Origin: Planosporangium flavigriseum | Lineage (GTDB): Bacteria; Actinomycetota; Actinomycetes; Mycobacteriales; Micromonosporaceae | NCBI RefSeq assembly: GCF_011947225.1 | Contig: NZ_JAATVW010000023.1 | Location: 1-64,000 of the forward strand | Length of the DNA: 64,000 nt | Reading direction: 5' to 3' | Shown here: positions 2,140 to 20,922 of the stretch, in pieces | How positions within the stretch are numbered: the stretch's first letter is position 1 | Layout: each line of letters opens with the position of its first letter | The notes under the pieces: generated by a model | Told to the model about the DNA's origin: nothing | Databases searched by the model: none | The model's input: only the letters and a program-made list of their open reading frames with translations | Program-made: the position numbers and the translations under genes

Positions 2140-2904
2140 GTGAAGATCGTGGTGTGTGTCAAGCAGGTGGTGGAGGTCCCGAGTTACGTCGAGTTCGGTG
2201 CCGGTGGCGCGGATGTGGATCCCGCGTTCACCTCGCGCGAGCTGAACGACGCTGACACCTACGCGGTCGAGGAGGCCCTCCGCATCCGCGACGAGGTAGG
2301 CGGCGAGGTCGTGGTCGTGACCGCGGGCGACGAGGGGGCCGTCGAGGCGCTGCGCCGATGCGTGGCGATGGGTGCCGACCGGGCGGTCCGGGTGTGGTCG
2401 GACGGTCTTTCGGTGCATGACCCGATCGCGGTGGCACGGTCGCTGGCGGCGGCGATCCGTGACGAGGCGGCCGACCTGGTCTTCTGCGGCGTGCAGTCCA
2501 GCGACGCGGCGCAGCAGTCGACCGGACCGGCGCTCGCGTCGGCGCTGGGTGTGCCGTCTGTTTCGGTGGCCACCAAGGTCGACGTCGTGTCCGGCGGGAG
2601 CGGGTTGACCGTCCGGCGTGAGTTCGAGGGTGGACTCGCCGAGGTCGTCGAGCTCGACGGGCCCGCGGTGATCACTGTGCAGACCGGGCTGAACACCCCG
2701 CGGTACGGGTCGTTCAAGGAAATGATGAAGGCCAAGAAGGCGCAGATCCCGGTCGTGGACCCGGGTGACGCCGGTGCGTCCCGGGTGAAGGTGCGGCGGA
2801 TGTTCGTGCCGGCCTCCAGCGGCGGTCGGGATATCGAAATGATCGACGGTGGCCCGGCGCAGATCGCTGCCCGCATCGTCCAGCTTGTGCGTGAGGTGGG
2901 TTGA
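2140..2904 (+). CDS. etfB: Electron transfer flavoprotein, beta subunit
   Basis: A 254-residue protein of usual EtfB length. The N-terminus MKIVVCVKQV is typical, and the AMP-binding signature D-A-A-Q-Q (residues 122-126, then TGPALAS) is intact. With EtfA it forms a soluble FAD carrier that takes electrons from flavin dehydrogenases and passes them to a membrane quinone oxidoreductase. The start is GTG at 2140, with GGGGGAGG about six bases upstream. Its stop overlaps the etfA start (TGATG). Its position directly upstream of a GMC dehydrogenase, not an acyl-CoA dehydrogenase, suggests a dedicated role in sugar oxidation; that is inference. Confidence 0.93.
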   Translation: MKIVVCVKQVVEVPSYVEFGAGGADVDPAFTSRELNDADTYAVEEALRIRDEVGGEVVVVTAGDEGAVEALRRCVAMGADRAVRVWSDGLSVHDPIAVARSLAAAIRDEAADLVFCGVQSSDAAQQSTGPALASALGVPSVSVATKVDVVSGGSGLTVRREFEGGLAEVVELDGPAVITVQTGLNTPRYGSFKEMMKAKKAQIPVVDPGDAGASRVKVRRMFVPASSGGRDIEMIDGGPAQIAARIVQLVREVG

Positions 2905-3848
2905 TGAGCGGCGTGCTGGTGGTGACCGAGGTTGTGGACGGTCGCCTGGACGAGTCGGTGCGGGAACTGGTCACCGCGGCGGTCGCCGTCGGCGGGCCGG
3001 TGACGCTGGGCGTCGCCGCGGCCGATGTGGACGCGGTGTTGGCGGACACGGCGATTGCCGGCGTGGACGAGGTCGTCACGGTCCGGCTCGCTGCCGGCGG
3101 TTTCGACCACGAACTGCAGCGGCACGCGGTCCGGGCGATGATCGAGCAGGTCACGCCGGACGTGGTGGTGCTGGGCTACACGATCCGGGCCGCGGCGTAC
3201 GCGGCCGCGCTGGCCGAGGAGCTCGGTCTGGGCTTCGCGTCGGACGTGGTCGGGCTGAGCCGGGACGCCGGCGAGCTGGTGGCGATCAAGCCGGTGTACG
3301 GCGGCAAGGTCTACGCCGAGCTCGGCTTCGCCTCGGACGCCGCGGTGCTGGTGACCCTGCGTCCGGGCGTCTGGGAGCAGGCTGAGGTCGCCGGCGCCCC
3401 GGCGGCGGTACGCGAGGTCGCGCTGGGCGGGTCGGCGGTGTCGCGGGTGCGTCACGTGGAGTACCTCGCGCCGGCCGGCGGCGTCGACCTGAAGCGGGCG
3501 GACGTCATCTTCTCGGTCGGCCGCGGGGTCGGCGCGAAGGAGAACATCGAGAAGTTCGCCGAGATCGCCAACAAGCTGGGCGCCGGCCTGGGTGCGTCGC
3601 GGCCGCTGGTCGACTCCGGCTGGCTGCCGGCCGCGCACCAGGTGGGCCAGACCGGCGTCTCTGTGAAGCCGAAGCTGTACGTGGCGTTCGGGATCTCCGG
3701 TGCGTTGCAGCACCTGGCCGGGATGAGCGGCAGTAAGAAGATCATCGCGATCAACACCGACAAGGATGCCCCGATCTTCAACGTGGCGGACGTCGGAGCC
3801 GTCGCCGACATCCTCGAAGTCGCCGACGAACTCAAGGCGCTCATCTAG
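2904..3848 (+). CDS. etfA: Electron transfer flavoprotein, alpha subunit
   Basis: A 314-residue EtfA. The C-terminal FAD domain (about 198-310) is complete: SRPLVDSGW at 232-240, QVGQTG at 246-251, YVAFGISGALQH at 259-270 and INTDKDAPIF at 283-292. An ATG overlapping the etfB stop is used, which implies translational coupling; a TTG three bases earlier is less likely. Motifs match the ordinary, non-bifurcating ETF type. The next gene, a GMC dehydrogenase, starts 78 bases downstream and is probably in the same operon. Confidence 0.93.
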   Translation: MSGVLVVTEVVDGRLDESVRELVTAAVAVGGPVTLGVAAADVDAVLADTAIAGVDEVVTVRLAAGGFDHELQRHAVRAMIEQVTPDVVVLGYTIRAAAYAAALAEELGLGFASDVVGLSRDAGELVAIKPVYGGKVYAELGFASDAAVLVTLRPGVWEQAEVAGAPAAVREVALGGSAVSRVRHVEYLAPAGGVDLKRADVIFSVGRGVGAKENIEKFAEIANKLGAGLGASRPLVDSGWLPAAHQVGQTGVSVKPKLYVAFGISGALQHLAGMSGSKKIIAINTDKDAPIFNVADVGAVADILEVADELKALI

Positions 3849-3926
3849 CCGTCGCCGCTCCGCTCGGCGTCGTCGCGTGCGGTCGTACCGGACGACGCCG
3901 AGTGCGGAATCATTCGGAGGTACCCA

Positions 3927-5555
3927 TTGAAGACCAACAATGACGTTGCCGATGTCCTGATCATCGGCGCCGGGGCGTCTGGCGGTGTGGCCGCGAAGCA
4001 CCTAGCCGAAGAGGGTTTCAAGGTCGTCGTGCTCGAGCAGGGCGACTGGATCAACCAGAGTGACCTGCCCGGCCTGCGCCCCGAGTACGAGCTGCTCGGT
4101 TCGAAGGCGTGGCACCCGAACCCCAACATCCGCGGCAACGACACCGACTACCCGATCGACCTCAGCGAGTCCGTCGCGCAGGTCGGCATGTTCAACGGTG
4201 TCGGCGGCTCGACGATTCTCTACGCGAGCTGCTGGTGCCGGGCCAAGCCGTCCGACTTCCGGGTCCGCACGCTGGACGGTGTCGCGGACGACTGGCCGAT
4301 CAGCTACGAGGAGCTGGTCCCGTACTACGAGGCGGTGGAGCGCGACCTCGGCGTCTCCGGCGCGGCGGGCAACCCGGCCTACCCGGCCGGCTACAACCCG
4401 CCGCTGCCCGCGCACCCCATCAACGGCGTCGGCCGCAAGATGGCCGAGGGCCTCAACAAGCTGGGCTGGCACTGGTGGCCGGGCTACAACTCCATTCCGT
4501 CGCAGGCCCACCGCCGGCAGAAGCAGTGCGACCGCCTCGGCATCTGCATGTACGGCTGCCCGCACGGCATCAAGTCCTCGGCCGACGTGGCGCTCTTCCC
4601 GGACGCTCTCGCCCACGGCGCCAAGCTCATCACCCGCGCCCGGGTCGCCGAGATCACCCTGAACGAGAAGGGCCTCGCCAACGGCGCGGTCTACATCCAG
4701 GAGGGCCAGCAGTACTTCCAGCCGGCGAAGGTCGTCATCGTCGGGGCCAACGGGATCGGTACGCCGCGCCTGCTGCTGATGTCGAAGTCGAACCGATTCC
4801 CGGACGGACTGGCGAACTCGTCCGGCCTGGTCGGCAAGCGCTTCATGACGCACCCGTTCGGTACGTCGGTCGGGCTCTACGAGGACGACCTCGGCGACTT
4901 CCTCGGCCCGGCCGGTGAGGCGATCGAGTCCATGCAGTTCTACGAGACGGACGCCTCGCGCGGGTTCGTGCGCGGCAGCAAGTGGCACATCATCCCGGCC
5001 GCGGCCCGTCCGCTCGGGATGATCAACCGCTGGACCAAGGGCGAGGGGACCGCGGACGAGGAGTTCTGGGGTGAGCAGTTCACCTCGCGCATGAAGGACT
5101 CGATCGGCCACATGATCGAGTGGATGGTCATGCCGGACGACCTGCCGGAGGAGACCAACTACGTCACCCTCGACCCCGTGCTGACCGACTCCGACGGGCT
5201 GCCGGCGGCGAAGGTCCGCTACGTGACCGGGGAGAACACCCGCCGCCTGGTCGACTTCAACCTTGAGCGGAGCCTGGAGGCCCACGCGGCCGCCGGTGCG
5301 ACGAAGGCCTGGGTCACCAGCCGGAACAATCCCTCCTGGCACAACATGGGCACCTGCAAGATGGGTGACGACCCGGCGACGTCGGTGGTCAACGGTTACG
5401 GCCAGGCGCACGACGTGCCGAACCTGTACGTCATCGACGGCAGCCTCTTCGTGACGGCGACCGGTGTCAACCCGACCGCCACGATCTGCGCGCTGGCCAA
5501 GCGGACGGCGACGTACATCGCGAAGAACGCTCGTAATCAGGAGGTGGGGGCATGA
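3927..5555 (+). CDS. GMC-family FAD dehydrogenase, large subunit 1 (putative [3Fe-4S] sugar dehydrogenase)
   Basis: A 542-residue GMC oxidoreductase. The dinucleotide-binding motif IIGAGASG is at 12-19, the GGSTI flavin motif at 93-97, and the catalytic His/Asn pair is H472 (HNMGTCKMG) and N515 (NPTATICA). C201, C207 and C211 (CDRLGICMYGC) have the C-x5-C-x3-C spacing of the [3Fe-4S] ligands known in bacterial FAD-glucose dehydrogenase. No signal peptide is present, so the enzyme should be cytoplasmic. The start is TTG at 3927 with CGGAGG six bases upstream; its stop overlaps the small-subunit ATG. Relatives oxidise sugars or glycosides at C1, C2 or C3. The substrate cannot be read from sequence. 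Upstream etfBA suggests ETF as electron acceptor. Confidence 0.85.
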   Translation: MKTNNDVADVLIIGAGASGGVAAKHLAEEGFKVVVLEQGDWINQSDLPGLRPEYELLGSKAWHPNPNIRGNDTDYPIDLSESVAQVGMFNGVGGSTILYASCWCRAKPSDFRVRTLDGVADDWPISYEELVPYYEAVERDLGVSGAAGNPAYPAGYNPPLPAHPINGVGRKMAEGLNKLGWHWWPGYNSIPSQAHRRQKQCDRLGICMYGCPHGIKSSADVALFPDALAHGAKLITRARVAEITLNEKGLANGAVYIQEGQQYFQPAKVVIVGANGIGTPRLLLMSKSNRFPDGLANSSGLVGKRFMTHPFGTSVGLYEDDLGDFLGPAGEAIESMQFYETDASRGFVRGSKWHIIPAAARPLGMINRWTKGEGTADEEFWGEQFTSRMKDSIGHMIEWMVMPDDLPEETNYVTLDPVLTDSDGLPAAKVRYVTGENTRRLVDFNLERSLEAHAAAGATKAWVTSRNNPSWHNMGTCKMGDDPATSVVNGYGQAHDVPNLYVIDGSLFVTATGVNPTATICALAKRTATYIAKNARNQEVGA

Positions 5556-6001
5556 GCACGCCCTTGCAGCTGGAGTTTCGGCTGAGCCAGGCGCAGCGGG
5601 ATCGGTTGGCGGTGTTCGCGGATTTGTTGATTTCGGGTGGTGCCGGGTTGCCGGCGGCTACCGAGGTTGACGTTGCGGGGGCGTGGATCGATCGGGCGTT
5701 GGGGGCGCGGCCTGATCTGGTGGAGACGGTGGTCGGGGTGCTGGCCGAGGAGGGTGAGCCGGCTGAGGTGCTGGCCCGGTTGCGGGCGCAGGAGCCGGAG
5801 CGGTTCGATGCGTTCGCGTTCATTGTGGCGGGGGCGTACCTGATTCATCCGCGGGTGCGGAAGTTGCTGGGTTATCCGGGTGGTGCGCCGGAGCCGAGTC
5901 CGGCGTTCCCGGACGAGGCCGATGCCTACCTCGAAGACGGCATCCTCGACGTGGTCATCGAGCGCGGCCCCACCTACCGGCCCACCCCGCAGACCGCCTG
6001 A
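5552..6001 (+). CDS. Small subunit 1 of GMC dehydrogenase (gluconate 2-dehydrogenase subunit 3-like)
   Basis: A 149-residue mainly helical protein starting at an ATG that overlaps the stop of the large subunit. Its layout (LSQAQRDRLAVFADLLI near the N-terminus, a W-I-D-R-A-L helix, then PRVRKLLGYPG and ERGPTYRPT near the C-terminus) fits the gluconate 2-dehydrogenase subunit 3 family, whose members accompany GMC sugar dehydrogenases. The usual Tat leader is absent, which agrees with a cytoplasmic complex. The gene is almost identical at DNA level to 8489-8941, although the large subunits have clearly diverged. Its codon choice is also looser (many GTT, TTG, GAT) than its neighbours. Family assignment rests on length, layout and context. 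Confidence 0.7.
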   Translation: MSTPLQLEFRLSQAQRDRLAVFADLLISGGAGLPAATEVDVAGAWIDRALGARPDLVETVVGVLAEEGEPAEVLARLRAQEPERFDAFAFIVAGAYLIHPRVRKLLGYPGGAPEPSPAFPDEADAYLEDGILDVVIERGPTYRPTPQTA

Positions 6002-6013
6002 ATTCCTACTCCC

Positions 6014-6052
6014 GGGGCCAGTCCGGAACGGCCCAGGTTCCGGACTGGCCCC
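6014..6052 (+). terminator. Strong hairpin with T-rich tail after small subunit 1
   Basis: A 16-base perfect stem (6014-6029 with 6037-6052) has a seven-base loop and is followed by GATCTTTTCG. It ends the etfB-etfA-GMC1-small subunit unit, or attenuates reading into the GlcG-like gene 37 bases further on. Confidence 0.8.
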
Positions 6053-6088
6053 GATCTTTTCGTCGCAACTCGCCAGAGGGGAAGCACT

Positions 6089-6520
6089 GTGGACGCATTT
6101 CAGAAGCTCAAGAAATTCGCTGACGTGTGCGAGGAGGTCGCGGCGGCCCGCGGCATCCCGATCTGCGTCACCGTGCTCGACGCGCACAACAATCCCGTGC
6201 TGCTGCACCGCATGCCGGGCTCCGGGATCATCACCTTGGAGATGGCGGAGCGGAAGGCGTACACCTCGGTGGCGCTGGGTTGTGAGACCTACGCGTTGAA
6301 AGCCGGGATCCAGCCGGGGCAGCCGCTGTACTCGCTGACGACCTCGTCCAGCCGGCTCATCGCCTTCGGTGGTGGGACGTGTGTGCGGTTCGGTTCGGAG
6401 GTGTTCGGGATCGGAATCTCCGGTGGGCCGACCGAGGTGGAGGACATGGAGATCCTGCGGGACGCCCGGATCAAGTTCGGCGACGGCGAGTGGGCGCCCG
6501 ACTCGATGGGGACCGACTGA
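6089..6520 (+). CDS. GlcG/HbpS family protein
   Basis: A 143-residue protein of the GlcG/HbpS fold (heme-degrading/heme-binding-like family). Typical features are an N-terminal helix, ICVTVLDAHNNPVLLHRMPG near 30-50, the K-A-Y-T-S helix near 63, and FGGGTCVRFGSEVFGIGISG in the last third. The start is GTG at 6089 after AGAGGGGAAG. Members often sit beside oxidoreductase operons, and their biochemical role is usually undefined. It is separated from the upstream operon by a strong hairpin, so its expression may be lower or independent. There is no signal peptide, unlike secreted HbpS. Confidence 0.75.
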   Translation: MDAFQKLKKFADVCEEVAAARGIPICVTVLDAHNNPVLLHRMPGSGIITLEMAERKAYTSVALGCETYALKAGIQPGQPLYSLTTSSSRLIAFGGGTCVRFGSEVFGIGISGGPTEVEDMEILRDARIKFGDGEWAPDSMGTD

Positions 6521-6542
6521 GAGTCCGGATCGAGAAGCGTTG

Positions 6543-6574
6543 GGGCGGGGCGCGGCGATTGGCGCGCCCCGCCC
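6543..6574 (+). terminator. Hairpin after the GlcG-like gene
   Basis: An 11-base GC-only stem (6543-6553 with 6564-6574) follows the stop codon by about 22 bases. No U-tract is seen, which is common for actinomycete terminators. Confidence 0.65.
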
Positions 6575-6866
6575 GCGTGCCGTGGCCTGGGTGGGGTTTC
6601 CCGCTGGTACGCGGCACTCCGCGCGGCGCTCGTCCACTGTGATCAGGAGGTCGGCCGTTCGATGCTTGGGTCCTGACATTTGTGGATAACTCGGCGGGCT
6701 GAAGGCGTTGACGCGGGGCTGCGCACAGGTTGTAATGAAGTGCAACATACGCGCTGGTCATGCATATATTGCACAAGCGTGTTGCACTGGATGGGTGGAG
6801 CCGTCGTCGACGGCTCGGGACCGCTACATCGTCTGATTGGCGTTCCGACGGCAGTAAGGAAAAAGC
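6575..6866 (+). promoter_or_regulatory. Promoter region of the second GMC operon with operator-like sequence (site B)
   Basis: No gene is visible. The stretch 6730-6790 is AT-richer and carries several TGCA/TTGCAC elements. The reverse strand of 6758-6777 reads CTTGTGCAATATATGCATGA, closely resembling site C at 11334-11353 (CTTGTGCGTATTTTGCATTA). Both contain TGC-N7-GCA. A shared regulator for the GMC2 operon and the first ABC importer is therefore plausible. An AAGGAAAAAGC ribosome site lies just before the ATG at 6867. Confidence 0.45.
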
Positions 6867-8492
6867 ATGGGAACCACGAACGACGTCGCCGATGTGCTGA
6901 TCATCGGTGCTGGAGCGTCGGGGTCTGTCGCTGCCAAGCACCTTGCCGAGCAGGGATTCAACGTCGTGATTCTCGAGCAGGGTAACTGGATCAACTCCAG
7001 CGAGCTGCCCGGAAACAAGCCGGAGTACGAACTCCTGGGGTCGGGGAAGTGGAACCCGGACCCGAACGTGCGGGCTTGGGACGCGGACTACCCCGTCAAC
7101 GTGGAGAACTCCGAGCAGCCGGTGTTCATGTACAACGCCGTCGGCGGCAGTACCGTCTTCTTCGCCGGCGTCTGGAGTCGGTTCCTACCCTCCGACTTCC
7201 GGGTCCGCACTCTTGACGGCATCGCGGATGACTGGCCGATCAGCTACGAGGACCTGGCCCCGTTCTACGAGGCGGTCGAGCGCGACATGGGCGTCTCCGG
7301 CATGGGAGGCAACCCCGCGTACCCGCCGGGCTACAACCCGCCGCTGCCGGCGCACCCGATCCACGCGACCGGTCGCAAGATGGCCGAGGGGCTCAACAAG
7401 CTCGGCTGGCACTGGTGGACCGGGTACTCCGCCATCCCGTCGCAGAAGTACCGCAACCAGAAGCAGTGCGCGCGGCTGGGAATCTGCCGCCTGGGCTGCG
7501 TCGAGGGGGCCAAGGGCTCCGCGGACGTCGCGCTGCTGCCGGACGCCCTCAAGCACGGCGCCAAGCTGATCACCGGCGCCCGCGTCTCGCAGGTCACGGT
7601 CAACGAGAAGGGCCTTGCCAACGGCGCCACGTACTTCCGCGAGGGCAAGGAGTACCACCAGGCGGCGAAGGTCGTCATCGTCGGGGCCAACGGGATCGGT
7701 ACGCCGCGCCTGCTGCTGATGTCGATGTCGGGCCGGTTCCCCAACGGGCTGGCCAACTCGTCCGGCCTGGTCGGCAAGCGCCTCATGCTGCACCCGTTCG
7801 GATCGGTCATCGGCCTGTACGACGACGACCTCGACGACTGGTACGGCCCGGCCGGCACCCAGATCGAGTCCATGCAGTTCTACGAGACCGACCTCTCCCG
7901 CGGTTTCGTGCGCGGCAGCAAGTGGCACGTGATGGGCACCGGCGGACCGGTCGAGATGCTGACCCGGTGGAACATCGGTGAGGGCGCCCGTGACGAGGAG
8001 TTCTGGGGCGACCAGTTCGCCGTCAAGATGAAGCAGGCCGTCAACCACTCGATCGACTGGATCATCCACGCCGAGGACCTGCCCGAGGAGACCAACTACG
8101 TCTCCCTCGACCACGGCCTGACCGACTCCGACGGGCTGCCGGCGCCGAAGGTGCACTACGCCACCGCGGAGAACACCCACAAGATCCTCGACTTCGCGCT
8201 CAACCGCGCGCTGGAGTCGCACGCGGCCGCGGGGGCCACGAAGGCGTGGATCACGCACCGGAACTTCTCGTCCGGACACAACATGGGTACGGCCAAGATG
8301 GGTGACGACCCGGCGACGTCGGTGGTCAACGGTTACGGCCAGGCGCACGACGTGCCGAACCTGTACGTCATCGACGGCAGTGTGTTCCCGACCTCCTCGT
8401 CCACGAACCCCACCGCCACAATCTGCGCGTTCGCCAAGCGCGCGGCGACGTACATCGCGAAGAACGCTCGTAATCAGGAGGTGGGGGCATGA
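6867..8492 (+). CDS. GMC-family FAD dehydrogenase, large subunit 2 (putative [3Fe-4S] sugar dehydrogenase)
   Basis: A 541-residue paralogue of the protein at 3927-5555, colinear along its full length. It has IIGAGASG at 12-19, the cysteine motif C201/C207/C211 (CARLGICRLGC), H471 in HNMGTAKMG and N514 in NPTATICA. The cysteine spacing is kept although the surrounding residues differ, which argues for a functional cluster. Differences near the active site (WSRF for CWCR near 103; SSTNP for TGVNP near 512) suggest a different substrate or stereochemistry. There is no export signal. It heads an operon with small subunit 2, an Ldh2-family oxidoreductase and an enolase-superfamily enzyme. The last part of the gene shares long identical DNA blocks with copy 1. 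Confidence 0.85.
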   Translation: MGTTNDVADVLIIGAGASGSVAAKHLAEQGFNVVILEQGNWINSSELPGNKPEYELLGSGKWNPDPNVRAWDADYPVNVENSEQPVFMYNAVGGSTVFFAGVWSRFLPSDFRVRTLDGIADDWPISYEDLAPFYEAVERDMGVSGMGGNPAYPPGYNPPLPAHPIHATGRKMAEGLNKLGWHWWTGYSAIPSQKYRNQKQCARLGICRLGCVEGAKGSADVALLPDALKHGAKLITGARVSQVTVNEKGLANGATYFREGKEYHQAAKVVIVGANGIGTPRLLLMSMSGRFPNGLANSSGLVGKRLMLHPFGSVIGLYDDDLDDWYGPAGTQIESMQFYETDLSRGFVRGSKWHVMGTGGPVEMLTRWNIGEGARDEEFWGDQFAVKMKQAVNHSIDWIIHAEDLPEETNYVSLDHGLTDSDGLPAPKVHYATAENTHKILDFALNRALESHAAAGATKAWITHRNFSSGHNMGTAKMGDDPATSVVNGYGQAHDVPNLYVIDGSVFPTSSSTNPTATICAFAKRAATYIAKNARNQEVGA

Positions 8493-8941
8493 GCACGCCC
8501 TTGCAGCTGGAGTTTCGGCTGAGCCAGGCGCAGCGGGATCGGTTGGCCGTGTTCGCGGATTTGTTGATTTCGGGTGGTGCCGGGTTGCCGGCGGCTACCG
8601 AGGTTGACGTTGCGGGGGCGTGGATCGATCGGGCGTTGGGGGCGCGGCCTGATCTGGTGGAGACGGTGGTCGGGGTGCTGGCCGAGGAGGGTGAGCCGGC
8701 TGAGGTGCTGGCCCGGTTGCGGGCGCAGGAGCCGGAGCGGTTCGATGCGTTCGCGTTCGTTGTGGCGGGGGCGTACCTGATTCATCCGCGGGTGCGGAAG
8801 TTGCTGGGTTATCCGGGTGGTGCGCCGGAGCCGAGTCCGGCGTTCCCGGACGAGGCCGATGCCTATCTCGAAGACGGCATCCTCGACGTGGTCATCGAGC
8901 GCGGCCCCAGCTACCGGCCCACGCCCGAGGCTCGCGGATGA
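8489..8941 (+). CDS. Small subunit 2 of GMC dehydrogenase (gluconate 2-dehydrogenase subunit 3-like)
   Basis: A 150-residue protein differing from small subunit 1 by one internal residue (Val for Ile near 90) and the C-terminal tail (SYRPTPEARG for TYRPTPQTA). The DNA shows only a handful of mismatches over about 450 bases, so the copies were duplicated or homogenised recently. The ATG overlaps the GMC2 stop, and its own stop overlaps the next ATG. Having the same partner for two diverged large subunits suggests a common assembly or electron-transfer role. Confidence 0.7.
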   Translation: MSTPLQLEFRLSQAQRDRLAVFADLLISGGAGLPAATEVDVAGAWIDRALGARPDLVETVVGVLAEEGEPAEVLARLRAQEPERFDAFAFVVAGAYLIHPRVRKLLGYPGGAPEPSPAFPDEADAYLEDGILDVVIERGPSYRPTPEARG

Positions 8942-9996
8942 GCGTCGTACCCCTCGACGTCATGCGGGACTGGACGATCCAGGTCCTGATCAGGGTCGGA
9001 CTGACGGAATCCGATGCGGAGGCGGTCGCCGCGAGTCTCGCGTTCGCCGAGGCCCGGGGCGTGGGTACGCACGGGCTGATCCGGCTGTCGACGTACGTCG
9101 AACGAATCCGCGCGGGCGGCATCAACAAGGCGGCACGCATCCGTACCGAGGCCGATCTGGGTGCGCTGGTCATCGTCGACGCCGACGACGCACCCGGCGC
9201 GAGTTCCGGGGTCTACGGCGCGGACCTGGCCATCGAGCGTGCGCGGGAGTACGGCATCGGATGCGTCATCGCGCGCAACGGCAACCACTTCGGCGCCTCA
9301 GCCTTCTTCACGAACCGGATCGCCGACGCCGGGCTGCTCGGTCTGGTCGCGTGCAACACCGAGTCGGTGATGTGCGCGCCGTTCGGCGGCCGCCCCGTTC
9401 TCGGCACGAACCCGTTCGCTGTCGCGGTGCCGCTCCCGTACGAGCAGCGACCCCAGGTGGACATGGCCACCACGACCGTTCCTCAGGGCAAGTTGCTGGT
9501 CGCGGCGCAGAACGGCGAGGACATCCCGCTCGGCTGGGCGGTGGACACGCAGGGCCGACCGACGACCTCGCCGGCGGAGGGCCTCAAGGGTGCGCTGACA
9601 CCCGCCGGCGGCCCCAAGGGCTTCGGGCTGGCGTTCGCCGTCGACGCGCTCGTCGCGCTGGCCGGTGCGAACGTCAGTCCGGCGGTGACCGCCCTCAACG
9701 GGGACCCGTCACTGTCGCAACGGCAGGGCCATCTCTTCCTGGCCATCCGCGCCGACGCCACCGGCTCGCTGAGCGAGTACCACGAGCGCATCGGGCAACT
9801 CGTCAACGCCATCCACCACAGTGGAGTCGACGGGGAGGGGGTGCCGCCGCTCGCCCCCGGCGAACCGGAGCTGATCCACGAACGCAAGGTGGACGGGTGC
9901 GTGGCGCTCACCGATGGCCTGCTCGATCAGTTGCGTGCGTTGGCTGCCGACACCGAAGTGCCCCTTCCCGGGCCGCTCGAGGCGGTCGCGAACTGA
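8938..9996 (+). CDS. Malate/L-lactate dehydrogenase family (Ldh2) NAD(P)-dependent oxidoreductase
   Basis: A 352-residue member of the Ldh2 family, which reduces or oxidises 2-keto/2-hydroxy acids (malate, ureidoglycolate, 2,3-diketogulonate and similar) with NAD(P)H. Family features are R-GVGTHG-IRL near 40-50 with H45, GNHFGA near 115-120 with H117, FGG-PVLGTNPFAVAVP near 150, and the GPKGFGLAF cofactor loop near 223. The ATG overlaps the stop of small subunit 2 (ATGA), so it is translated in the same operon as GMC2. It may act on a keto sugar acid made by the pathway; the exact substrate is not predictable. Confidence 0.85.
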   Translation: MSVVPLDVMRDWTIQVLIRVGLTESDAEAVAASLAFAEARGVGTHGLIRLSTYVERIRAGGINKAARIRTEADLGALVIVDADDAPGASSGVYGADLAIERAREYGIGCVIARNGNHFGASAFFTNRIADAGLLGLVACNTESVMCAPFGGRPVLGTNPFAVAVPLPYEQRPQVDMATTTVPQGKLLVAAQNGEDIPLGWAVDTQGRPTTSPAEGLKGALTPAGGPKGFGLAFAVDALVALAGANVSPAVTALNGDPSLSQRQGHLFLAIRADATGSLSEYHERIGQLVNAIHHSGVDGEGVPPLAPGEPELIHERKVDGCVALTDGLLDQLRALAADTEVPLPGPLEAVAN

Positions 9997-10053
9997 AGCC
10001 CGTCCGCTCGTCCGTGTCCCGGCCCGGCCGTACTAATAATGAGGAAAGCGCGA

Positions 10054-11142
10054 ATGGCTAAGATCGAATCAGTCCGCTCGGACTTCTACCAGCTGCCCCT
10101 CGACGTCGAGTTGAGCGACAGCACGCACGGGGCGATTCCACACTTCGAGTTCGTCACCGTACGCATCAAGGACTCGGACGGCGGCGAGGGCTCCGGCTAC
10201 ACGTACGCCGTCAACTCCGGCGCCGCGGCGTTCCACGCGCTGATCGAGGGGTACCTGGCGCCGATGCTCATCGGACGTGACGCCGACGAGATCGAGAAGC
10301 TGTGGCAGGACATGTGGTGGAAGGTCCACTACTCCGGCCGCGGTGGCCACGCGACCTCTGCGATCTCTGCCGTCGACATCGCGCTGTGGGACCTCAAGGC
10401 GCGCCGGGCCGGCGCGCCGCTCTGGCGGCTGCTCGGCGGCTACGACCCCAAGGTGCCGGTGTACGCGGGCGGCATCGACCTGGACTTCACGATCGACGCG
10501 CTGCTCGCCCAGGCCGACGGTTTCCTGGCCCACGGTCACCGCGCCATCAAGATGAAGGCCGGCCGGCCGCACCTTCGCGAGGACATCGAGCGCGTCCGCC
10601 GGATGCGTGAGCACCTCGGTGACGACTTCCCGCTGATGGTCGACGCGAACATGCGGTGGAGCGTGGACCAGGCGATCCGGGCCGCCCGCGAGCTGGCGGA
10701 GTTCAACCTGGTCTGGCTCGAGGAGCCGACCATCCCCGACGACATCCCGGGCCATGTCCGGGTCGTACGCGAGGGGCGCACCCCGGTGGCGACGGGGGAG
10801 AACATGCACACCCTGTACGAGTTCCAGGCCATGATCAGTGCCGGTGGGGTGACGTATCCGGAGCCGGACGTCACCAACTGCGGTGGCGTCACCGTCTTCC
10901 GGAAGATCGCGGCCGTGGCGGAGGCGCACAACCTGCCCGTCACGTCGCACGGCGCGCACGACATCACGCTCCACCTGCTGGCCGCCGCCCCCAACCGCAC
11001 CTACATGGAGGTGCACGGGTTCTCCCTCGACCGGTTCGTCGCCGAACCGATGGTCTTCGAGGAGGGCTTCACGGTCGCGCCGGAGCGGCCCGGCCACGGC
11101 ATCGAGCTGGACTGGTCGCAGCTGGAGCAGTACCGGAGGTAG
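10054..11142 (+). CDS. Enolase-superfamily (mandelate racemase/muconate lactonizing) enzyme, likely sugar-acid dehydratase
   Basis: A 362-residue enolase-superfamily protein. Metal ligands are D197 (VDAN), E223 (EEP) and E249 (TGEN). The base pair typical of the mandelate racemase subgroup is present: K166-x-K168 (IKMKAG) and H299 (SHGAHD). This subgroup is rich in acid-sugar dehydratases that make 2-keto-3-deoxy acids. That fits the KDG-type kinase and KDPG-type aldolase further on. The ATG at 10054 is preferred over one 15 bases upstream because GAGGAAAG lies six bases before it. It ends the GMC2 operon, followed by a very strong hairpin. The specific sugar acid is unknown. Confidence 0.85.
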   Translation: MAKIESVRSDFYQLPLDVELSDSTHGAIPHFEFVTVRIKDSDGGEGSGYTYAVNSGAAAFHALIEGYLAPMLIGRDADEIEKLWQDMWWKVHYSGRGGHATSAISAVDIALWDLKARRAGAPLWRLLGGYDPKVPVYAGGIDLDFTIDALLAQADGFLAHGHRAIKMKAGRPHLREDIERVRRMREHLGDDFPLMVDANMRWSVDQAIRAARELAEFNLVWLEEPTIPDDIPGHVRVVREGRTPVATGENMHTLYEFQAMISAGGVTYPEPDVTNCGGVTVFRKIAAVAEAHNLPVTSHGAHDITLHLLAAAPNRTYMEVHGFSLDRFVAEPMVFEEGFTVAPERPGHGIELDWSQLEQYRR

Positions 11143-11195: not shown

Positions 11196-11441
11196 TGTGG
11201 GCGGTCGACCGGGGTCGGTATCACCGGCTGACCGTCCGATGAGGCGCGGATCCAGATGAGAGCCGCGGTCCGCGATCGGGTGATTGACGTGTTGCCATGA
11301 TCACAGTAGCCTTTGCCTGCGGATAGCGCAGATCTTGTGCGTATTTTGCATTAAACAAGGTAGAGCCTCTTCTATAACGACTCATCTGGCCGAATTGGCC
11401 GCACGAGAGTCGCCGTGGGCAGCGGCCAGAAAGGCGAGGGG
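11196..11441 (+). promoter_or_regulatory. Promoter region of the first sugar ABC operon (site C)
   Basis: No gene is visible. Bases 11334-11353 read CTTGTGCGTATTTTGCATTA, matching the reverse strand of site B upstream of GMC2 at most positions, including TGC-N7-GCA. The region is AT-richer than its surroundings, and the site lies about 90 bases before the ATPase start. Confidence 0.45.
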
Positions 11442-13049
11442 ATGACCGATCTACCTCCGGCACCGCCCGACGGCAGAGCGCCCTCCGGCGTGTTGTATCC
11501 CGGTGGTCCGGAAGGGCACCAACCCTCCAGTGTGCTGATTGACCAGACGGCCCCGCTGATCACGCTGCGGGACGTTCGAATGCAGTTCCCTGGTGTCCTT
11601 GCGTTGGCCGGTGTCAGCCTCGACGTCGCACGGGGTGAGGTGCTGGCGCTGGTGGGGGAGAACGGCGCTGGCAAGTCGACCTTGGTGTCGATCCTCGCCG
11701 GACTGGTGAGCGGCTACGACGGCGAAGTCTTGCTCGACGGCTCCCCGATCACGGCCGGCTCGGCGAAGGAGAGCATCGCCCTCGTTCAACAAGAGCTGAG
11801 CCTGGTACCGGAGTTTTCGGTCGCCGAGAACATCATGCTCGGTCAGTTGCCACACGGTCGGCTGCCTGGGCTGTACGACCGGCGGAAAATGGACGCCGAG
11901 GCGCAGCGCGTACTCGACATCCTCGGCGTAGATCTACCGCTACGGCGCCCGGTTCGTCGCCTCAGCCCCGCTCAGTCGCAGATCGTCGAGATCGCGAAGG
12001 GCCTTGCGCGCCAGCCCCGCCTGCTCATCCTGGACGAGCCGACCTCTTCACTGACCACAGTGGAGGCGGAAAAGCTGTTCTCGGCGATTAGCGCGCTGCG
12101 CGAATGCGGCGTGGCGGTTCTGTACATCTCGCACAAGCTGGATGAGGTTCTTGCCATCGCTGACCGGGTGGCCGTCCTGCGCGACGGACGCAAGGTCACC
12201 GAAGGCCCGAGTGTGGAATGGACCGAGGAGCGTCTGATCCGCGCCATGGTCGGGCGCGATCTCAGTCAGTTCTACCGGCGCACCCCCCACACGCCCGGCA
12301 ACGTGGTCCTGGAAGTGAAGGCTCTTAGGGCACCGGGCCGGTTCGAGGACGTCAGCTTCGTTCTCCGCGAAGGTGAGGTCGTCGGCATGGCCGGCCTCGT
12401 CGGTGCGGGGCGGACCGAGGTGGCCGAGGCCATCTTCGGGCTGTCCCCAGCACGTGACGGTGAGATTCTGCTCAACGGCGCGCCTGTCCGGGTGAAGTCT
12501 CCCAGGACGGCGATCGCACACGGGATGGCACTCGTCACCGAGGACCGTCGGCAAAGCGGCATCGTCGGCTCCATGGCCACCTCGCGTAACGTGTCACTGG
12601 CGTCGCTGGTGGCCTTCAGTCGGGGCCAGTTGCTCAGGCGGTCCGTGGAATCCGCCGAGATCTCCCGCGTGGCCTCCCGGGTCAATCTGGCCCGACACAC
12701 GCTCGACCGTGCGATCGGCACGCTCAGCGGCGGCAATCAGCAGAAGGCGGTCATCGCCAAATGGCTCATGCGGACGCCGAAGGTGCTGATCCTTGACGAA
12801 CCGACACGAGGGATCGACGTCGGTGCGAAGTCGGAAATCTACCGCCTTGTCGACGAGCTGACCGCGGCCGGCATGGCCGTGCTGCTCATCAGCTCCGAGA
12901 TGCCGGAGATCCTCGGAATGAGTGACCGGGTGCTCGTCATGCGCAAGGGACGGTTGGTCGCCGAGTTCAGCAGGGAGGACGCAACCGAGGAGTCCCTCAT
13001 GGCTGCGGCCAGCGACGCCAGTACGAGGAATGGGGAGCGCTCATGGTGA
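11442..13049 (+). CDS. Sugar ABC importer 1, double ATPase subunit (RbsA/MglA type)
   Basis: A 535-residue ATPase with two nucleotide-binding halves, as in ribose/galactose importers. The N-terminal half has Walker A GENGAGKS at 72-79, a LSPAQSQIVEIAKG signature-like region and Walker B LLILDEPTSSL. The C-terminal half has the degenerate Walker A GLVGAGRTE usual for this subfamily, then LSGGNQQKAVIAKWL and VLILDEPTRGIDVG. The start is placed at the ATG at 11442, after AAAGGCGAGGGG; a GTG 27 bases upstream is possible. Its stop overlaps the permease ATG. It would power uptake of a monosaccharide or derivative, probably the substrate of this locus. Confidence 0.9.
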   Translation: MTDLPPAPPDGRAPSGVLYPGGPEGHQPSSVLIDQTAPLITLRDVRMQFPGVLALAGVSLDVARGEVLALVGENGAGKSTLVSILAGLVSGYDGEVLLDGSPITAGSAKESIALVQQELSLVPEFSVAENIMLGQLPHGRLPGLYDRRKMDAEAQRVLDILGVDLPLRRPVRRLSPAQSQIVEIAKGLARQPRLLILDEPTSSLTTVEAEKLFSAISALRECGVAVLYISHKLDEVLAIADRVAVLRDGRKVTEGPSVEWTEERLIRAMVGRDLSQFYRRTPHTPGNVVLEVKALRAPGRFEDVSFVLREGEVVGMAGLVGAGRTEVAEAIFGLSPARDGEILLNGAPVRVKSPRTAIAHGMALVTEDRRQSGIVGSMATSRNVSLASLVAFSRGQLLRRSVESAEISRVASRVNLARHTLDRAIGTLSGGNQQKAVIAKWLMRTPKVLILDEPTRGIDVGAKSEIYRLVDELTAAGMAVLLISSEMPEILGMSDRVLVMRKGRLVAEFSREDATEESLMAAASDASTRNGERSW

Positions 13050-14059
13050 CGACTGAAGAAGAGGCGGTCCGAGCGGTGCCTGAGGCTGACGTCACGCCTC
13101 GTGGCCGCCAGCTTCGTACCGCCACGACCATCGCCCGTGACTACGGGATGCACCTCGCGCTGGTGGCGTTGATCGTCATCTTCGCGATCGCGTCGCCCGA
13201 CTTTCGCACGGTGGAGAACCTGCTCAACATTTTGAACCAGGTCGCGGTCGTGGGCATCGTGTCGGTCGGCATGACGTTCGTGATCCTGACCGCGGGCATC
13301 GACCTCTCCGTCGGCTCACTGTTGGCGCTGACCAGTCTGTCGTCCGGAGTGTTCGCTGCGACGCAGACATCCACCACCGGCACGGTCCTCCTGGCCCTGG
13401 CGGTCCCGCTCATCGTGGGACTGGTGGGCGGCATGATAAACGGCGCGATCGTGGCTTCGAGGCTGGCGACGCCGCTGATCGTCACGCTGGGGACGTTGAC
13501 GGCCTTCCGGGGAATGGCTGTCCAGTACCGGGTGAACCCCATCCACAACCTGCAGGACTGGTACCGAGAGATCGGATCGGGCCGTACCGCGGGGATCCCG
13601 AACGGCATCTACATCTTCATCGCAATCATCCTCGTCGCCTCGTTGGTGCTCAATCGCACCCGGTTCGGCCGGGAGGTCTACGCGGTCGGTGGGAACGAAC
13701 AGGCCAGCCGAGCGGCGGGCATCAACGTCGCGAGGGTGAAGTTCGCGGTCTACGCCATCAGCGGCCTCTGCGTCGCGGTGGCCGCCATCATCAACACGTC
13801 GCGCATCGGCGCGGCGCAGGCGATAGCCGGGCAGGGCCTCGAACTCCAGGCGATCGCCGCCGTGGTCATCGGTGGGGCCAGCCTTTTCGGCGGTCGCGGC
13901 AAAATCAGCAACACCGTCATCGGCACGTTGATTCTGGGCGTCCTCTTCAACGGCCTCGTCCTGCTGAACGTGTCGTCACCCATCCAGAACATCATCATCG
14001 GTGCGCTCGTGGTCGCCGCCGTCAGCCTGGACGGTTTCTTTCGCCGCCGGTCCGCCTGA
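13043..14059 (+). CDS. Sugar ABC importer 1, permease (RbsC/AraH type)
   Basis: A 338-residue integral membrane protein with about eight to ten hydrophobic segments. It has the subfamily motifs TFVILTAGIDLSVGS near 90 and NEQASRAAGINV near 220. It overlaps the ATPase gene by seven bases. One gene of this kind normally forms a homodimeric channel with the double ATPase. The binding-protein gene follows after 48 bases. Confidence 0.9.
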   Translation: MVTTEEEAVRAVPEADVTPRGRQLRTATTIARDYGMHLALVALIVIFAIASPDFRTVENLLNILNQVAVVGIVSVGMTFVILTAGIDLSVGSLLALTSLSSGVFAATQTSTTGTVLLALAVPLIVGLVGGMINGAIVASRLATPLIVTLGTLTAFRGMAVQYRVNPIHNLQDWYREIGSGRTAGIPNGIYIFIAIILVASLVLNRTRFGREVYAVGGNEQASRAAGINVARVKFAVYAISGLCVAVAAIINTSRIGAAQAIAGQGLELQAIAAVVIGGASLFGGRGKISNTVIGTLILGVLFNGLVLLNVSSPIQNIIIGALVVAAVSLDGFFRRRSA

Positions 14060-14107
14060 GCTCAACGTAAGTCGTTCACGCACAAGTCCCGTAAGGAAGG
14101 CGTTTGT

Positions 14108-15112
14108 ATGCGCAGTAACCGGTTGCGCGCCGCGGCGAAGTCCGTCGGCGTCATGAGCCTTGCGGTCGCGTTGGCGGCCTGTGGAAGCTCCTCGGGAGGC
14201 ACGGCTGCCGGCGGTGGAAAGCGGGTGAAGCTCGCCGTGGAGTACGGCGCGCTGAGCTTTCCGTACCACTCGGCTCTGAAGCTGCTCGTGCACGCGAAAG
14301 CCAAGGAGCTCGGCGGCGTCAGCATCATCGAGGGCGACTCGAACAACGACACCGGCACCGAGCTGGCGAACGTGCAGAACCTCCTGTCCCAGAATCCAGA
14401 CTGCATGCTTCTCATCCCCGTCGGGAACGCGTCCTCGGCACCCGCTGAGGCCGCCCAGGGCGCGAACGTGCCGGTCGTTTCCTTCGACCAGAAAGCGGCG
14501 GGGCCGGCCAAGGCATTCGTCGGTTACAACCAGTTGCAGTCCGGCGACCTGCTGGGGCAGTTCATCGTCGACCAGTACAAGGCGCTCAACAAGCCGAAGA
14601 TCAAGGTCATCTACATCCGAGGAATCATCGGGCACGTTGCAGACACCGCCCGCAACCAGGGGCTCAAGGCGACCCTGCAGAAGGCCGGGCTCGACAAGGA
14701 CAAGGTCGGCATCATCGAGCAGTCCGCCGACTTCGACCGCGCCAAAGCGGAGTCGATCACCAACAACCTGATGCGCCAGCACCCGGACACGGACATCATC
14801 GTGGCCAACAACGACGACATGCTTCTGGGGGCGTACTCGGCGACGCAGACGCTGAAGCTGCCGACCGGCCCCGGTACGCCGTTGCACCTGGCCGGCGTGG
14901 ACGGCGTTCCCGAGGCGCTGAAGCTCATCGGGGAGGGCAAGATCGACGCCACCATGTTCCAGGACCCGGTCGCCGAAGCCAACACCGCGGTCACGACCTG
15001 CGTCGCCGCGGCGAAGGGCGAGGCCGTGTCGGACACCGTGCTGTCGTTCCGTCAGGTGACCAAGGCCGACGCGGCGGCGGCGCTCGATTCGGTGAAGTCC
15101 CTGTACAAGTAG
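14108..15112 (+). CDS. Sugar ABC importer 1, substrate-binding lipoprotein (RbsB type)
   Basis: A 334-residue periplasmic-binding-protein-like lipoprotein. The signal peptide ends in the lipobox LAAC with C25 as lipid anchor, followed by a Ser/Gly linker. The body has the type I binding fold: DSNNDTGTELANVQNLL, then IIVANNDDMLLGA, then HLAGVDGVPEALKLI. AAGGAAGG lies upstream of the ATG. It should sit on the outer face of the membrane and deliver a sugar-like ligand to the permease. The ligand is not predictable from these motifs. Confidence 0.9.
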   Translation: MRSNRLRAAAKSVGVMSLAVALAACGSSSGGTAAGGGKRVKLAVEYGALSFPYHSALKLLVHAKAKELGGVSIIEGDSNNDTGTELANVQNLLSQNPDCMLLIPVGNASSAPAEAAQGANVPVVSFDQKAAGPAKAFVGYNQLQSGDLLGQFIVDQYKALNKPKIKVIYIRGIIGHVADTARNQGLKATLQKAGLDKDKVGIIEQSADFDRAKAESITNNLMRQHPDTDIIVANNDDMLLGAYSATQTLKLPTGPGTPLHLAGVDGVPEALKLIGEGKIDATMFQDPVAEANTAVTTCVAAAKGEAVSDTVLSFRQVTKADAAAALDSVKSLYK

Positions 15113-19833: not shown

Positions 19834-19869
19834 ACCTGACTCTTGTCTTCTTCAAAATGTGCATCTACT

Positions 19870-19886
19870 CTGCGTATGTCGCGCAG
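19870..19886. promoter_or_regulatory. Operator-like inverted repeat in the divergent promoter region (site D)
   Basis: CTGCGTATGTCGCGCAG has perfect CTGCG/CGCAG arms seven bases apart. It matches site A upstream of etfB in arms, spacing and the TATGTCG core. It lies between the divergent NIPSNAP and kinase-IclR-aldolase units, where the IclR product could control both directions. Confidence 0.5.
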
Positions 19887-19944
19887 CCAACATAATCTTC
19901 AACCTGACACTCGGTCAAGAAGTCGAACCTGGCAGGAGGTGAGC

Positions 19945-20922
19945 GTGGAACACGCCGGCGGCTCAGACTCGCGGGATGTCTTCGACGTGGTCGCGATCGG
20001 AGAGACGATGGCGGCCTTCGTCCAGGATGGAGCCGCCGCCGACCGCTACCGGGTCACCGCGATCGGCGCCGAGTCGAACGTCGCGGTCGGGGTGGCTCAG
20101 CTGGGTTGCCGCGCGCGCTGGGTGTCCCGCCTCGGCGAGGACGAGCTCGGCCGGTACGTCCACGACTCCATCGCCAGTCACGGCGTCGACGTCCGGGTCG
20201 AATGGGATTCCAGTCGCCCGACCGGAGTCAGCGTCAAGGAGGTGCGCCCCGGCCGGACGCGCGTGCGCTACTACCGCAGCCAGAGCGCCGCCCGACAGCT
20301 CAATCGGGCGCAGGTGGCCAGCTTCGGAACCGCGCGATGGCTGCATGTCACCGGCATCACGCCGGCTCTGTCGTCCGAGGCGGCCGACGTCATCACGATG
20401 CTCGTGGAGCGCCGTGCCGGTCACACCGGCAAGGTGAGCTTCGACGTCAACTACCGGCCGGTCCTGTGGCCGGACGTCGCCACGGCGTCACGGGTGCTCA
20501 TCCCGCTCGCCCGGCAGGCGGACGTCGTCTTCATCGGCTACGACGAGGCCGAGAGCCTGCTCGGCAGCTGCGACGAGGCGGAGATCGCCCGCCACCTGCT
20601 GACCCGGGACGACCAGGAGCTCGTCATCAAGCGCGGTGAGGGCGCAGCCAGCGTGGTGACCACCGCGGGCAGCGTGTCCGAGCCCGCCATTCCGACCACG
20701 ATCGTGGATCTGACGGGAGCCGGCGACGCCTTCGCGGCCGGCTACCTGACCGGCGCCTGCTGGGGCTGGGACGCCAGTCAGCGCCTTCGTCTTGGGCACT
20801 TCCTCGCATCCCGCGTCGTCGGCGTGCCGCGCGATCTGGGGCCTGCTGTGGATAAAGCGGAGCTCGCCCGCATATCCTCGGCTATTGCCGCCCCTTCCCA
20901 GCTTAGGAATGATGCGTTATGA
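19945..20922 (+). CDS. PfkB-family sugar kinase, likely 2-keto-3-deoxygluconate-type kinase
   Basis: A 325-residue ribokinase-fold enzyme. The substrate GG-like region is near ESNVAVGVAQLG (41-52), and the ATP/anion-hole motif DLTGAGDAFAAGY contains GAGD at 258-261 with catalytic D261. The GTG start at 19945 follows CAGGAGG. Operon partners are an IclR regulator and a KDPG-type aldolase, the usual neighbours of KDG kinase (KdgK). It would phosphorylate a 2-keto-3-deoxy sugar acid made by the dehydratase at 10054-11142. Another ketose kinase role is possible. Its stop overlaps the regulator ATG. Confidence 0.85.
   Translation: MEHAGGSDSRDVFDVVAIGETMAAFVQDGAAADRYRVTAIGAESNVAVGVAQLGCRARWVSRLGEDELGRYVHDSIASHGVDVRVEWDSSRPTGVSVKEVRPGRTRVRYYRSQSAARQLNRAQVASFGTARWLHVTGITPALSSEAADVITMLVERRAGHTGKVSFDVNYRPVLWPDVATASRVLIPLARQADVVFIGYDEAESLLGSCDEAEIARHLLTRDDQELVIKRGEGAASVVTTAGSVSEPAIPTTIVDLTGAGDAFAAGYLTGACWGWDASQRLRLGHFLASRVVGVPRDLGPAVDKAELARISSAIAAPSQLRNDAL

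Follow-up and report, generated by a model that had tools for sequence, protein, structure and literature searches.

Which acceptor takes the electrons of the two GMC dehydrogenases encoded near the start of this contig of Planosporangium flavigriseum? The stretch analysed, hereafter the window, comprises 64,000 nucleotides (NZ_JAATVW010000023.1, positions 1 to 64,000), and within it the genes for an electron-transfer flavoprotein (ETF) lie just upstream of the first GMC gene. ETF is known for accepting electrons from dehydrogenases that act on acyl-CoA or N-methyl-amines and from some that act on hydroxy acids. We consider it likely that the GMC enzymes are cytoplasmic Fe-S sugar dehydrogenases that pass electrons through ETF and EtfD to quinone as a sugar-oxidation module. 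Among the results listed by text searches of the literature there was no published description of a GMC-ETF sugar route.

Gene content of the locus

The genes that bear on this question are the following:

2140–2904, + strand: etfB, ETF beta subunit (PF01012, 8e-45)
2901–3848, + strand: etfA, ETF alpha subunit with FAD domain (PF00766, 3e-34; PF01012, 8e-24)
3927–5555, + strand: GMC1, GMC dehydrogenase with C201/C207/C211 (both GMC domains match)
5552–6001, + strand: small subunit 1, putative divergent Gluconate_2-dh3 relative, no signal peptide visible
6089–6520, + strand: HbpS/GlcG-like protein (PF03928, 4e-24)
6867–8492, + strand: GMC2, GMC dehydrogenase with C201/C207/C211 (both GMC domains match)
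8489–8941, + strand: small subunit 2 (97% identity to small subunit 1)
8938–9996, + strand: Ldh_2-family hydroxy-acid dehydrogenase (PF02615, 6e-94)
10039–11142, + strand: enolase-superfamily sugar-acid dehydratase-like protein (MR_MLE domains)
11415–15112, + strand: ribose-type ABC sugar transporter, comprising ATPase, permease and binding protein (NCBIfam scores below equivalog cut-offs)
19843–22246, + strand: PfkB kinase (KDG-kinase-like), IclR regulator (BhcR/KdgR-like; 20919–21665) and KDPG-aldolase-like protein
27092–29338, + strand: EtfD, membrane Fe-S oxidoreductase (CCG and Fer4 domains; match to PDB 9ojn)

An earlier note had placed etfB and etfA directly before one GMC/small-subunit pair, with a second such pair following. 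The domain matches of etfB and etfA far exceed the cut-offs. Both pairs are present and etfBA do precede GMC1, with a gap of 78 bases after etfA, but the second pair is separated from the first by the HbpS/GlcG-like gene and a further 346 bases holding a separate regulatory site. GMC1 and GMC2 are 72% identical, and both small-subunit genes overlap the stop codon of their GMC gene. The best NCBIfam model for the dehydratase-like protein is talarate/galactarate dehydratase, at 285 bits and thus below the cut-off of 500. Near relatives of the Ldh_2-family enzyme are present in loci L024 and L029, and in L022 the same PfkB kinase, IclR regulator and KDPG-aldolase-like families as at 19843–22246 lie immediately upstream of etfB-etfA-GMC. 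A dimethylglycine/sarcosine-dehydrogenase-like protein (DAO, FAO_M and GCV_T domains) is encoded at 31695–34154, near the EtfD gene.

The identity of EtfD, proposed earlier from the letters alone, held up: the protein matches PDB 9ojn over its full length (E 3.6e-210), an entry that is mycobacterial EtfD according to the available part of PMC13083937. Its gene is 23 kb from etfBA and not adjacent to them; in proteobacteria, EtfD homologues are found immediately 3' of etfBA, beside GMC genes. In its EtfBA and EtfD the window resembles the mycobacterial beta-oxidation ETF-EtfD route (relatives FadF and DgcB, in the available part of PMC13083937), from which it differs in that the proposed client is a GMC dehydrogenase that carries an Fe-S motif and is encoded in a sugar cluster.

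The presence of a GMC enzyme and an ETF within one system also recalls the mycofactocin MftG system. That system combines the GMC dehydrogenase MftG with a mycofactocin-associated ETF. The window proteins, in contrast, score far under the cut-offs of TIGR03970, TIGR04503 and NF038209, and etfB falls below that of the mycofactocin model mft_etfB. A mycofactocin link was rejected on these low MftG and mft_etf scores and on the lack of any MftC match over cut-off in the window's genome, which is 99% complete.

Cysteine motif, fold and lack of visible export signals in the GMC enzymes

GMC1 and GMC2 both carry C201, C207 and C211 in the C-x5-C-x3-C arrangement that had been read from them before, with the [3Fe-4S] spacing of FAD-glucose dehydrogenase (Cys212, Cys218 and Cys222 in the available part of PMC6719666). 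The three cysteines are invariant across the five close GMC paralogs of the genome, three of which are encoded on contigs C78 and C33, and also across an alignment of 29 sequences, 4 of them from the window's own genome. The motif is kept in 89 of 90 related ORFs, counting the window and its own paralogs, and the sole ORF that lacks it is a partial one at a contig end. The cysteines of GMC1 and GMC2 would probably hold a [3Fe-4S] cluster.

A PDB sequence search returned fructose dehydrogenase and FAD-glucose dehydrogenase as the nearest solved relatives, and the predicted model of GMC1 is likewise closest to these two (TM 0.80–0.86). The nearest by both sequence and predicted fold is the fructose dehydrogenase of Gluconobacter japonicus (PDB 7w2j, 8jej, 9jqa), with which the GMC cysteines align in both fructose-enzyme alignments inspected. 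Identity in the fold alignments is 26–27%, and the Gluconobacter enzyme, unlike those of the window, is membrane-bound according to the PDB entry titles. It has a haem c subunit, as the title of 9jqa also states. Next in the structural ranking come sugar and C-glycoside oxidases, which would suit a reading of GMC1 and GMC2 as oxidases or as users of another acceptor (O2, quinone or a small protein), with ETF optional in some lineages. Arguing from FAD-glucose dehydrogenase as described in the available part of PMC6719666, however, an invariant Fe-S motif is unexpected for an oxidase.

The FAD-glucose dehydrogenase of Burkholderia cepacia (PDB 6a2u, 8grj) shares with the window a GMC catalytic subunit, the cysteine spacing and a small partner. 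That enzyme, according to the available part of PMC6719666, hands its electrons to a tri-haem cytochrome c subunit and has a Tat hitchhiker as gamma subunit, whereas in the window neither a Tat signal nor an adjoining cytochrome was found and ETF adjoins instead. The window's small subunits resemble the 'hitchhiker' subunit minus a visible Tat signal. Of 38 aligned small subunits, 12 have a hit to PF13618 (9.6e-7 at best), but for the copy in the window no family was hit; a PDB profile search gave no sequence match for the small subunit, and its predicted fold had no PDB match at E 0.001.

Export signals were judged by inspection and hydrophobicity, and, in agreement with the earlier note, neither a Tat nor a Sec signal was seen on the GMC proteins or the small subunits. 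In the 38 small subunits a tail of at most about 30 residues leads directly into the conserved domain, and the three Tat-like RR strings among them all fall within that domain; their top hydrophobicity (2.02) is below that of two lipoprotein controls (2.34 and 2.48), although by a small margin. GMC1 and GMC2 start 13 residues ahead of the FAD-binding glycine motif. In 88 GMC ORFs no in-frame hydrophobic 12-residue stretch (≥2.2) occurs within 60 residues upstream, and the RR strings found upstream in 12 of them come without one. The expectation that a cytochrome c subunit is missing was also borne out for the locus: CXXCH occurs in none of the 23 genes listed for the window, etfB through EtfD, and none of the five CXXCH genes among 1186 called in 82 related loci is a cytochrome adjoining GMC. 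Two of these five have a hydrophobic start; their distance to the GMC gene is about 4 kb in L098 and 9 kb in L073.

The fold and cysteines shared with FAD-glucose dehydrogenase, and the possible distant kinship of the small subunits to Gluconate_2-dh3, would fit a complex that is exported and works like that periplasmic enzyme with a cytochrome encoded elsewhere. Given the signals and neighbouring genes just described, and the ABC importer, kinase and aldolase genes within the cluster, we rejected this reading as highly improbable.

Linkage of GMC and ETF genes across genomes

The etfBA neighbourhood sought by the earlier note in related genomes is conserved: a complete ETF pair is present in 18 of 80 related GMC loci, where about 0.6 would be expected, and in 13 of the 80 it is joined by EtfD, which supports the proposal that ETF takes the place of the cytochrome. 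Other GMC genes lie near ETF in only 2 of 103 cases in 16 genomes. The linkage occurs in Actinomycetota and Pseudomonadota, and in several lineages etfBA-EtfD lie downstream of GMC or face it. L092 has GMC, small subunit, etfB, etfA and EtfD consecutively, and another genome has the same five-gene run twice, the copies (L146, L147) being some 23 kb from each other. The GMC1 subclade (window, L022, L023, L024) has ETF in the locus in all four cases, the L023 contig starting inside etfA. The count of 18 omits L023, where the end of etfA alone is seen, and L090, where etfB alone is seen at the end of the stretch.

The 18 loci are not of one kind, as three of the ETF pairs (L043, L064, L101) fall in the canonical actinobacterial ETF clade. 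Five of the non-canonical loci are close Mesorhizobium-type relatives; setting aside the canonical three and grouping these five, by eye, we count 11 separate lineages. The ETF tree sets 19 GMC-linked rows, counting that of the window, beside 17 others. Repeats of one ETF were omitted and duplicates thinned by choice (L118 kept; L117, L120, L121 and L122 left out), and L109 is without etfA. Searching 247 genomes of the Mesorhizobium family for EtfA gave four hits, all adjoining GMC, small subunit and EtfD, although one of these is the query itself and another comes from the L053 genome, which the locus count already includes. A search of 385 genomes from the class of G001 hit G001 alone, but the genomes listed were mostly small, which leaves this result with little weight.

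Among 396 genomes of the window's phylum, EtfA of the window's type was hit in two further cases, neither adjoining GMC: in L135 the neighbours are GcvT, an FMN-oxidoreductase and EtfD, and in L136, a 4.8-kb contig, an MttB-type gene. L137 likewise has an ETF of the window's clade beside GcvT and FMN-oxidoreductase genes and EtfD. By eye, the FMN-oxidoreductases of L135 and L137 are trimethylamine-dehydrogenase-like.

ETF might serve a different flavoprotein, for instance the dimethylglycine/sarcosine-dehydrogenase-like protein, and adjoin GMC1 by chance or through shared regulation only. The same-clade ETFs just described, and the position of that DAO/FAO_M/GCV_T protein near EtfD, speak for this. 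We regard it as unlikely, however, since etfA is 78 bases from GMC1 but 28 kb from the amine enzyme, the linkage recurs in the 18 loci across two phyla, and one putative operator is common to etfB, GMC2 and the sugar transporter (below).

In the other 62 of the 80 loci no complete ETF pair lies in the stretch examined, many stretches ending at contig ends. Similarly, no ETF was found on contigs C78 and C33 or in the stretches examined for the nearest GMC2 relatives (L025, L026, L028, L029, L030), of which L030 has EtfD, and of six remoter GMC relatives in the 16 genomes none lies near ETF. ETF may thus serve only part of the GMC family, and its wiring may not be general to it. These 62 loci, like the ranked oxidases, favour an oxidase or another acceptor, but against this stand the position of etfBA-EtfD after or facing GMC in several lineages and the presence of ETF somewhere in 15 of 16 genomes examined, and we consider this alternative quite improbable. 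The absence of ETF in G016 (L058) was set aside as counter-evidence because, of 61 genomes sampled from its genus, 60 carry ETF and G016 alone does not.

A putative operator and the proposed route

A recurring site, GCRTATNTYGCA, is a putative operator shared by etfB, GMC2 and the sugar transporter, and it thereby links etfB with the GMC and transporter genes in further support of the neighbourhood. The sites in the window are:

1990–2019, + strand: promoter-like TTGACG-TAGCCT upstream of etfB (pattern derived from the region itself)
2026–2037, − strand: GCRTATNTYGCA site upstream of etfB (used in writing the pattern)
6741–6773, no strand assigned: inverted pair of the GCRTATNTYGCA site upstream of GMC2 (used in writing the pattern)
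11284–11312, + strand: promoter-like TTGACG-TAGCCT upstream of the ABC transporter (pattern derived from the region itself)
11339–11350, + strand: GCRTATNTYGCA site upstream of the ABC transporter (used in writing the pattern)

The promoter-like pattern occurs twice in the window against 0.01 expected, having been written from the same regions. A scan for recurrent 14-mers was by itself no better than shuffles (maximum 3 versus 2–3), so the operator claim rests on genome-wide and cross-species counts. GCRTATNTYGCA has 8 copies in the 5.72-Mb genome, of which 7 fall within the GMC loci described here, although 5 of those 7 went into writing the pattern. In the loci of 80 relatives there are 10 sites against 1 in the control, and these lie ahead of etfB, of GMC, or of a gene for a binding protein or PfkB kinase.

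Under the route that we favour, the ribose-type ABC transporter would import a sugar or sugar derivative, which GMC1 and GMC2, each with its small subunit, would oxidise using FAD. The predicted [3Fe-4S] cluster would relay electrons to the co-encoded EtfBA, which would pass them to EtfD and thence to the quinone pool. Further processing of the oxidised sugar might fall to the Ldh_2-type dehydrogenase, the enolase-superfamily dehydratase, the KDG-type kinase and the KDPG-type aldolase.

The recurring GMC-ETF pairing and the shared DNA switch suggest an undescribed route by which sugar electrons enter respiration. We also lean, with somewhat less assurance than for the route itself, towards seeing Fe-S GMC enzymes that lack Tat signals and cytochromes as parts of a widespread modular cytoplasmic pathway, repeatedly gained and lost across Actinomycetota and Pseudomonadota, with the window's branch having a dedicated regulon with an inverted-repeat operator. 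The five-gene block and the operator render the GMC-ETF route directly testable. If it is correct, Fe-S GMC enzymes would be a new class of ETF clients and ETF a partner for enzymes of the glucose-biosensor kind, many loosely annotated GMC genes would acquire a testable acceptor, and there would be a defined route for the respiratory oxidation of sugars in the cytoplasm without NAD.

Gene cluster and iron-sulphur motif

An earlier note placed etfB and etfA directly before a GMC dehydrogenase gene with its small subunit, and a second such pair after these. The first arrangement is borne out, GMC1 beginning 78 bases past etfA; the second pair does follow (6867-8941), but an HbpS-like gene intervenes.

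Genes of the cluster and other features of the window
2140-2904, etfB, complete ETF subunit
2901-3848, etfA, complete ETF subunit
3927-5555, GMC1
5552-6001, small subunit 1, overlapping the GMC1 stop codon
6089-6520, HbpS-like gene, separating the two GMC units
6867-8492, GMC2, repeating the GMC1 and small-subunit arrangement
8489-8941, small subunit 2, overlapping the GMC2 stop codon
8938-9996, Ldh_2-type dehydrogenase
10039-11142, sugar-acid-dehydratase-like protein
11415-15112, ribose-type ABC transporter
31695-34154, dimethylglycine/sarcosine-dehydrogenase-like protein (DAO, FAO_M, GCV_T), downstream of EtfD

Farther along lie genes for a KDG-kinase-like PfkB protein, an IclR regulator, a KDPG-aldolase-like protein, a second transporter gene set and EtfD, the last unlinked to etfBA within the window. 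The identification of this protein as EtfD-like holds, since it matches the solved mycobacterial EtfD (PDB 9ojn) at E 3.6e-210. A fluoroacetyl-CoA-thioesterase-like protein (FlK, PF22636; 26530-26931) immediately precedes it, and a second, 59% identical EtfD is found on contig C34 of the same genome (149434-151626), the match being reported with one in-frame TAG. Small subunits 1 and 2 share 97% identity, and by eye the DNA of the GMC1 and GMC2 genes appears near-identical at the 3' ends, indicating recent duplication or gene conversion. On contig C78 (locus L017), as judged by eye, two further GMC/small-subunit units flank genes for a transporter of the sugar type and for an enoyl-CoA-hydratase-like protein.

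The C-x5-C-x3-C pattern noted in both dehydrogenases recurs in 89 of 90 GMC ORFs (own paralogs counted), the sole exception being a partial ORF. As proposed, its spacing is identical to that of the cluster ligands of FAD-GDH, given in PMC6719666 as Cys212, Cys218 and Cys222. Fructose and FAD-glucose dehydrogenases are the best solved relatives by sequence, at E about 1e-50, and the same entries were again the top matches (TM 0.80-0.86) of the predicted GMC model (pLDDT 83). The small subunit, distantly related to Gluconate_2-dh3 (12 of 38 members match), is present in 77 of the 80 relatives' loci; in L022, L025 and L030 the stretches stop shortly past GMC. Inspection and hydrophobicity, with provisional start codons for the relatives, revealed no export signal in 38 small subunits or upstream of 88 GMC ORFs, and no cytochrome c gene was found beside the GMC/small-subunit genes, both in agreement with the earlier note.

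Linkage of GMC and ETF genes

The proposed survey of GMC-etfBA co-occurrence was carried out on the loci of the best 80 of at least 499 confirmed GMC relatives, with genes named by clustering and inspection unless a domain match was made. A complete ETF pair occurs in 18 of these 80 loci, against about 0.6 expected by chance from the ETF density of 16 genomes; EtfD occurs in 14, and both together in 13. Fifteen ETF-linked loci from 11 lineages (our grouping) are left when three canonical-clade ETFs are set aside. Within the 16 genomes, close GMC1 relatives lie within 10 kb of ETF in 20 of 30 cases, a figure biased because 14 genomes were picked for linkage; the control, other GMC genes (2/103), is unaffected by this choice. 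Remoter relatives gave 0/6. Eight close relatives sit on a different contig from the one through which their genome entered the set; two of these eight lie within 12.5 kb of ETF, neither of them in G015 or G016, the only genomes not picked for linkage.

On the GMC tree (88 rows, L023 scored as ETF-less), the ETF label requires at least eight changes, so the link has been gained or lost repeatedly. GMC, small subunit, etfB, etfA and EtfD are consecutive in L092, and the same run, with domains checked, occurs in both blocks of one genome (L146 and L147). In Mesorhizobium-type loci, etfB-etfA-EtfD has as neighbours genes for a sugar transporter, GMC, the small subunit, an aldehyde dehydrogenase and a gluconolactonase-like SMP-30 protein. 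The reachable stretch lacks a complete ETF pair in 62 of the 80 relatives, which may use an unlinked ETF or another acceptor; ETF is found somewhere in 15 of the 16 genomes. The exception, G016 (Micromonospora sp. PLK6-60, L058), probably reflects an assembly gap; of 61 genomes sampled from its genus, 60 have ETF and G016 alone lacks it.

L023, on a contig filed under the gammaproteobacterium Panacagrimonas, matches the window in gene order, with one end of etfA followed by GMC1, its small subunit and GMC2, through either transfer or misbinning. Immediately before GMC, the GMC2-type loci L025, L026, L028, L029 and L030 have three genes in common, for an SDR or aldolase-like protein, a binding-protein-like product and an unnamed protein some 466 residues long.

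Searching in reverse with the EtfA of L044 gave four matches at 1e-50 in three of 247 Mesorhizobium-family genomes, each next to GMC, small-subunit and EtfD genes. Besides the query itself and a match in G1010, the L053 genome counted among the 80, there are two new matches, both in G1093. The window's EtfA gave three matches at 1e-55 in 396 genomes of the phylum, one being the window itself and the other two (L135 and L136) lacking an adjacent GMC. The L135 ETF has GcvT, an Oxidored_FMN protein and EtfD for neighbours, and so has that of L137 (Pseudogemmobacter); L136, a contig of 4.8 kb, carries an MttB-type gene. The window's kind of ETF is thus not exclusive to GMC, and looks to have been recruited from, or to be common to, N-methylamine pathways.

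A shared operator sequence

The sequence GCRTATNTYGCA occurs upstream of four genes or gene sets, namely etfB, GMC2, the first of the transporters and a GMC on C78, and forms an inverted pair at several places. The window has four matches (0.03 expected), all of which served to write the pattern, and the 5.72-Mb genome has eight, versus two for the pattern read backwards. Seven of the eight fall in these GMC loci, five of them used in writing the pattern; the two new ones, on C78, precede a GMC by about 450-490 bases and are closer to a divergent gene. Three sites stand upstream of the first GMC on C78, and the eighth genome match (C12) falls where a seemingly unrelated ORF, as judged by eye, begins.

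Among the relatives' loci (1.47 Mb), ten matches versus one for the control were found in 6 of the 80, none of them used for writing the pattern. In L022 they lie before etfB, in L024 between etfB and the gene of a periplasmic binding protein, and in L025, L026, L029 and L030 before GMC; in L029 a PfkB kinase gene is likewise preceded. All six come from the GMC1/GMC2 branch, so the operator evidence is confined to that branch and does not reach the Mesorhizobium-type loci. The neighbouring IclR protein is a candidate regulator.

Proposed route and substrates

Most likely, a sugar would be imported by the ABC transporter and oxidised by GMC, whose predicted [3Fe-4S] cluster would relay electrons singly to ETF, with EtfD passing them on to quinone, in an actinobacterium presumably menaquinone. 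Mycobacterial EtfD couples ETF to the respiratory chain, according to PMC13083937. The protein at 31695-34154 is a candidate further client of ETF.

The earlier note did not recognise a GMC-to-ETF route as described, and among the matches listed from open-licence PubMed Central papers, the mycofactocin MftG literature aside, there is likewise no description of a GMC dehydrogenase donating electrons to ETF. The one listed paper that combines the terms GMC, ETF and 3Fe-4S (PMC9045290) gives them as separate flavoproteins. We rate the enzyme parts as known and the proposed wiring as new.

Since the dehydratase, KDG-type kinase and KDPG-type aldolase genes fit a sugar-acid route, GMC probably yields a lactone or a keto-sugar. 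Transport genes elsewhere, namely a Peripla_BP_6 binding protein in L075 and, by eye, branched-chain-type transporter genes in L092, suggest that other members use other substrates.
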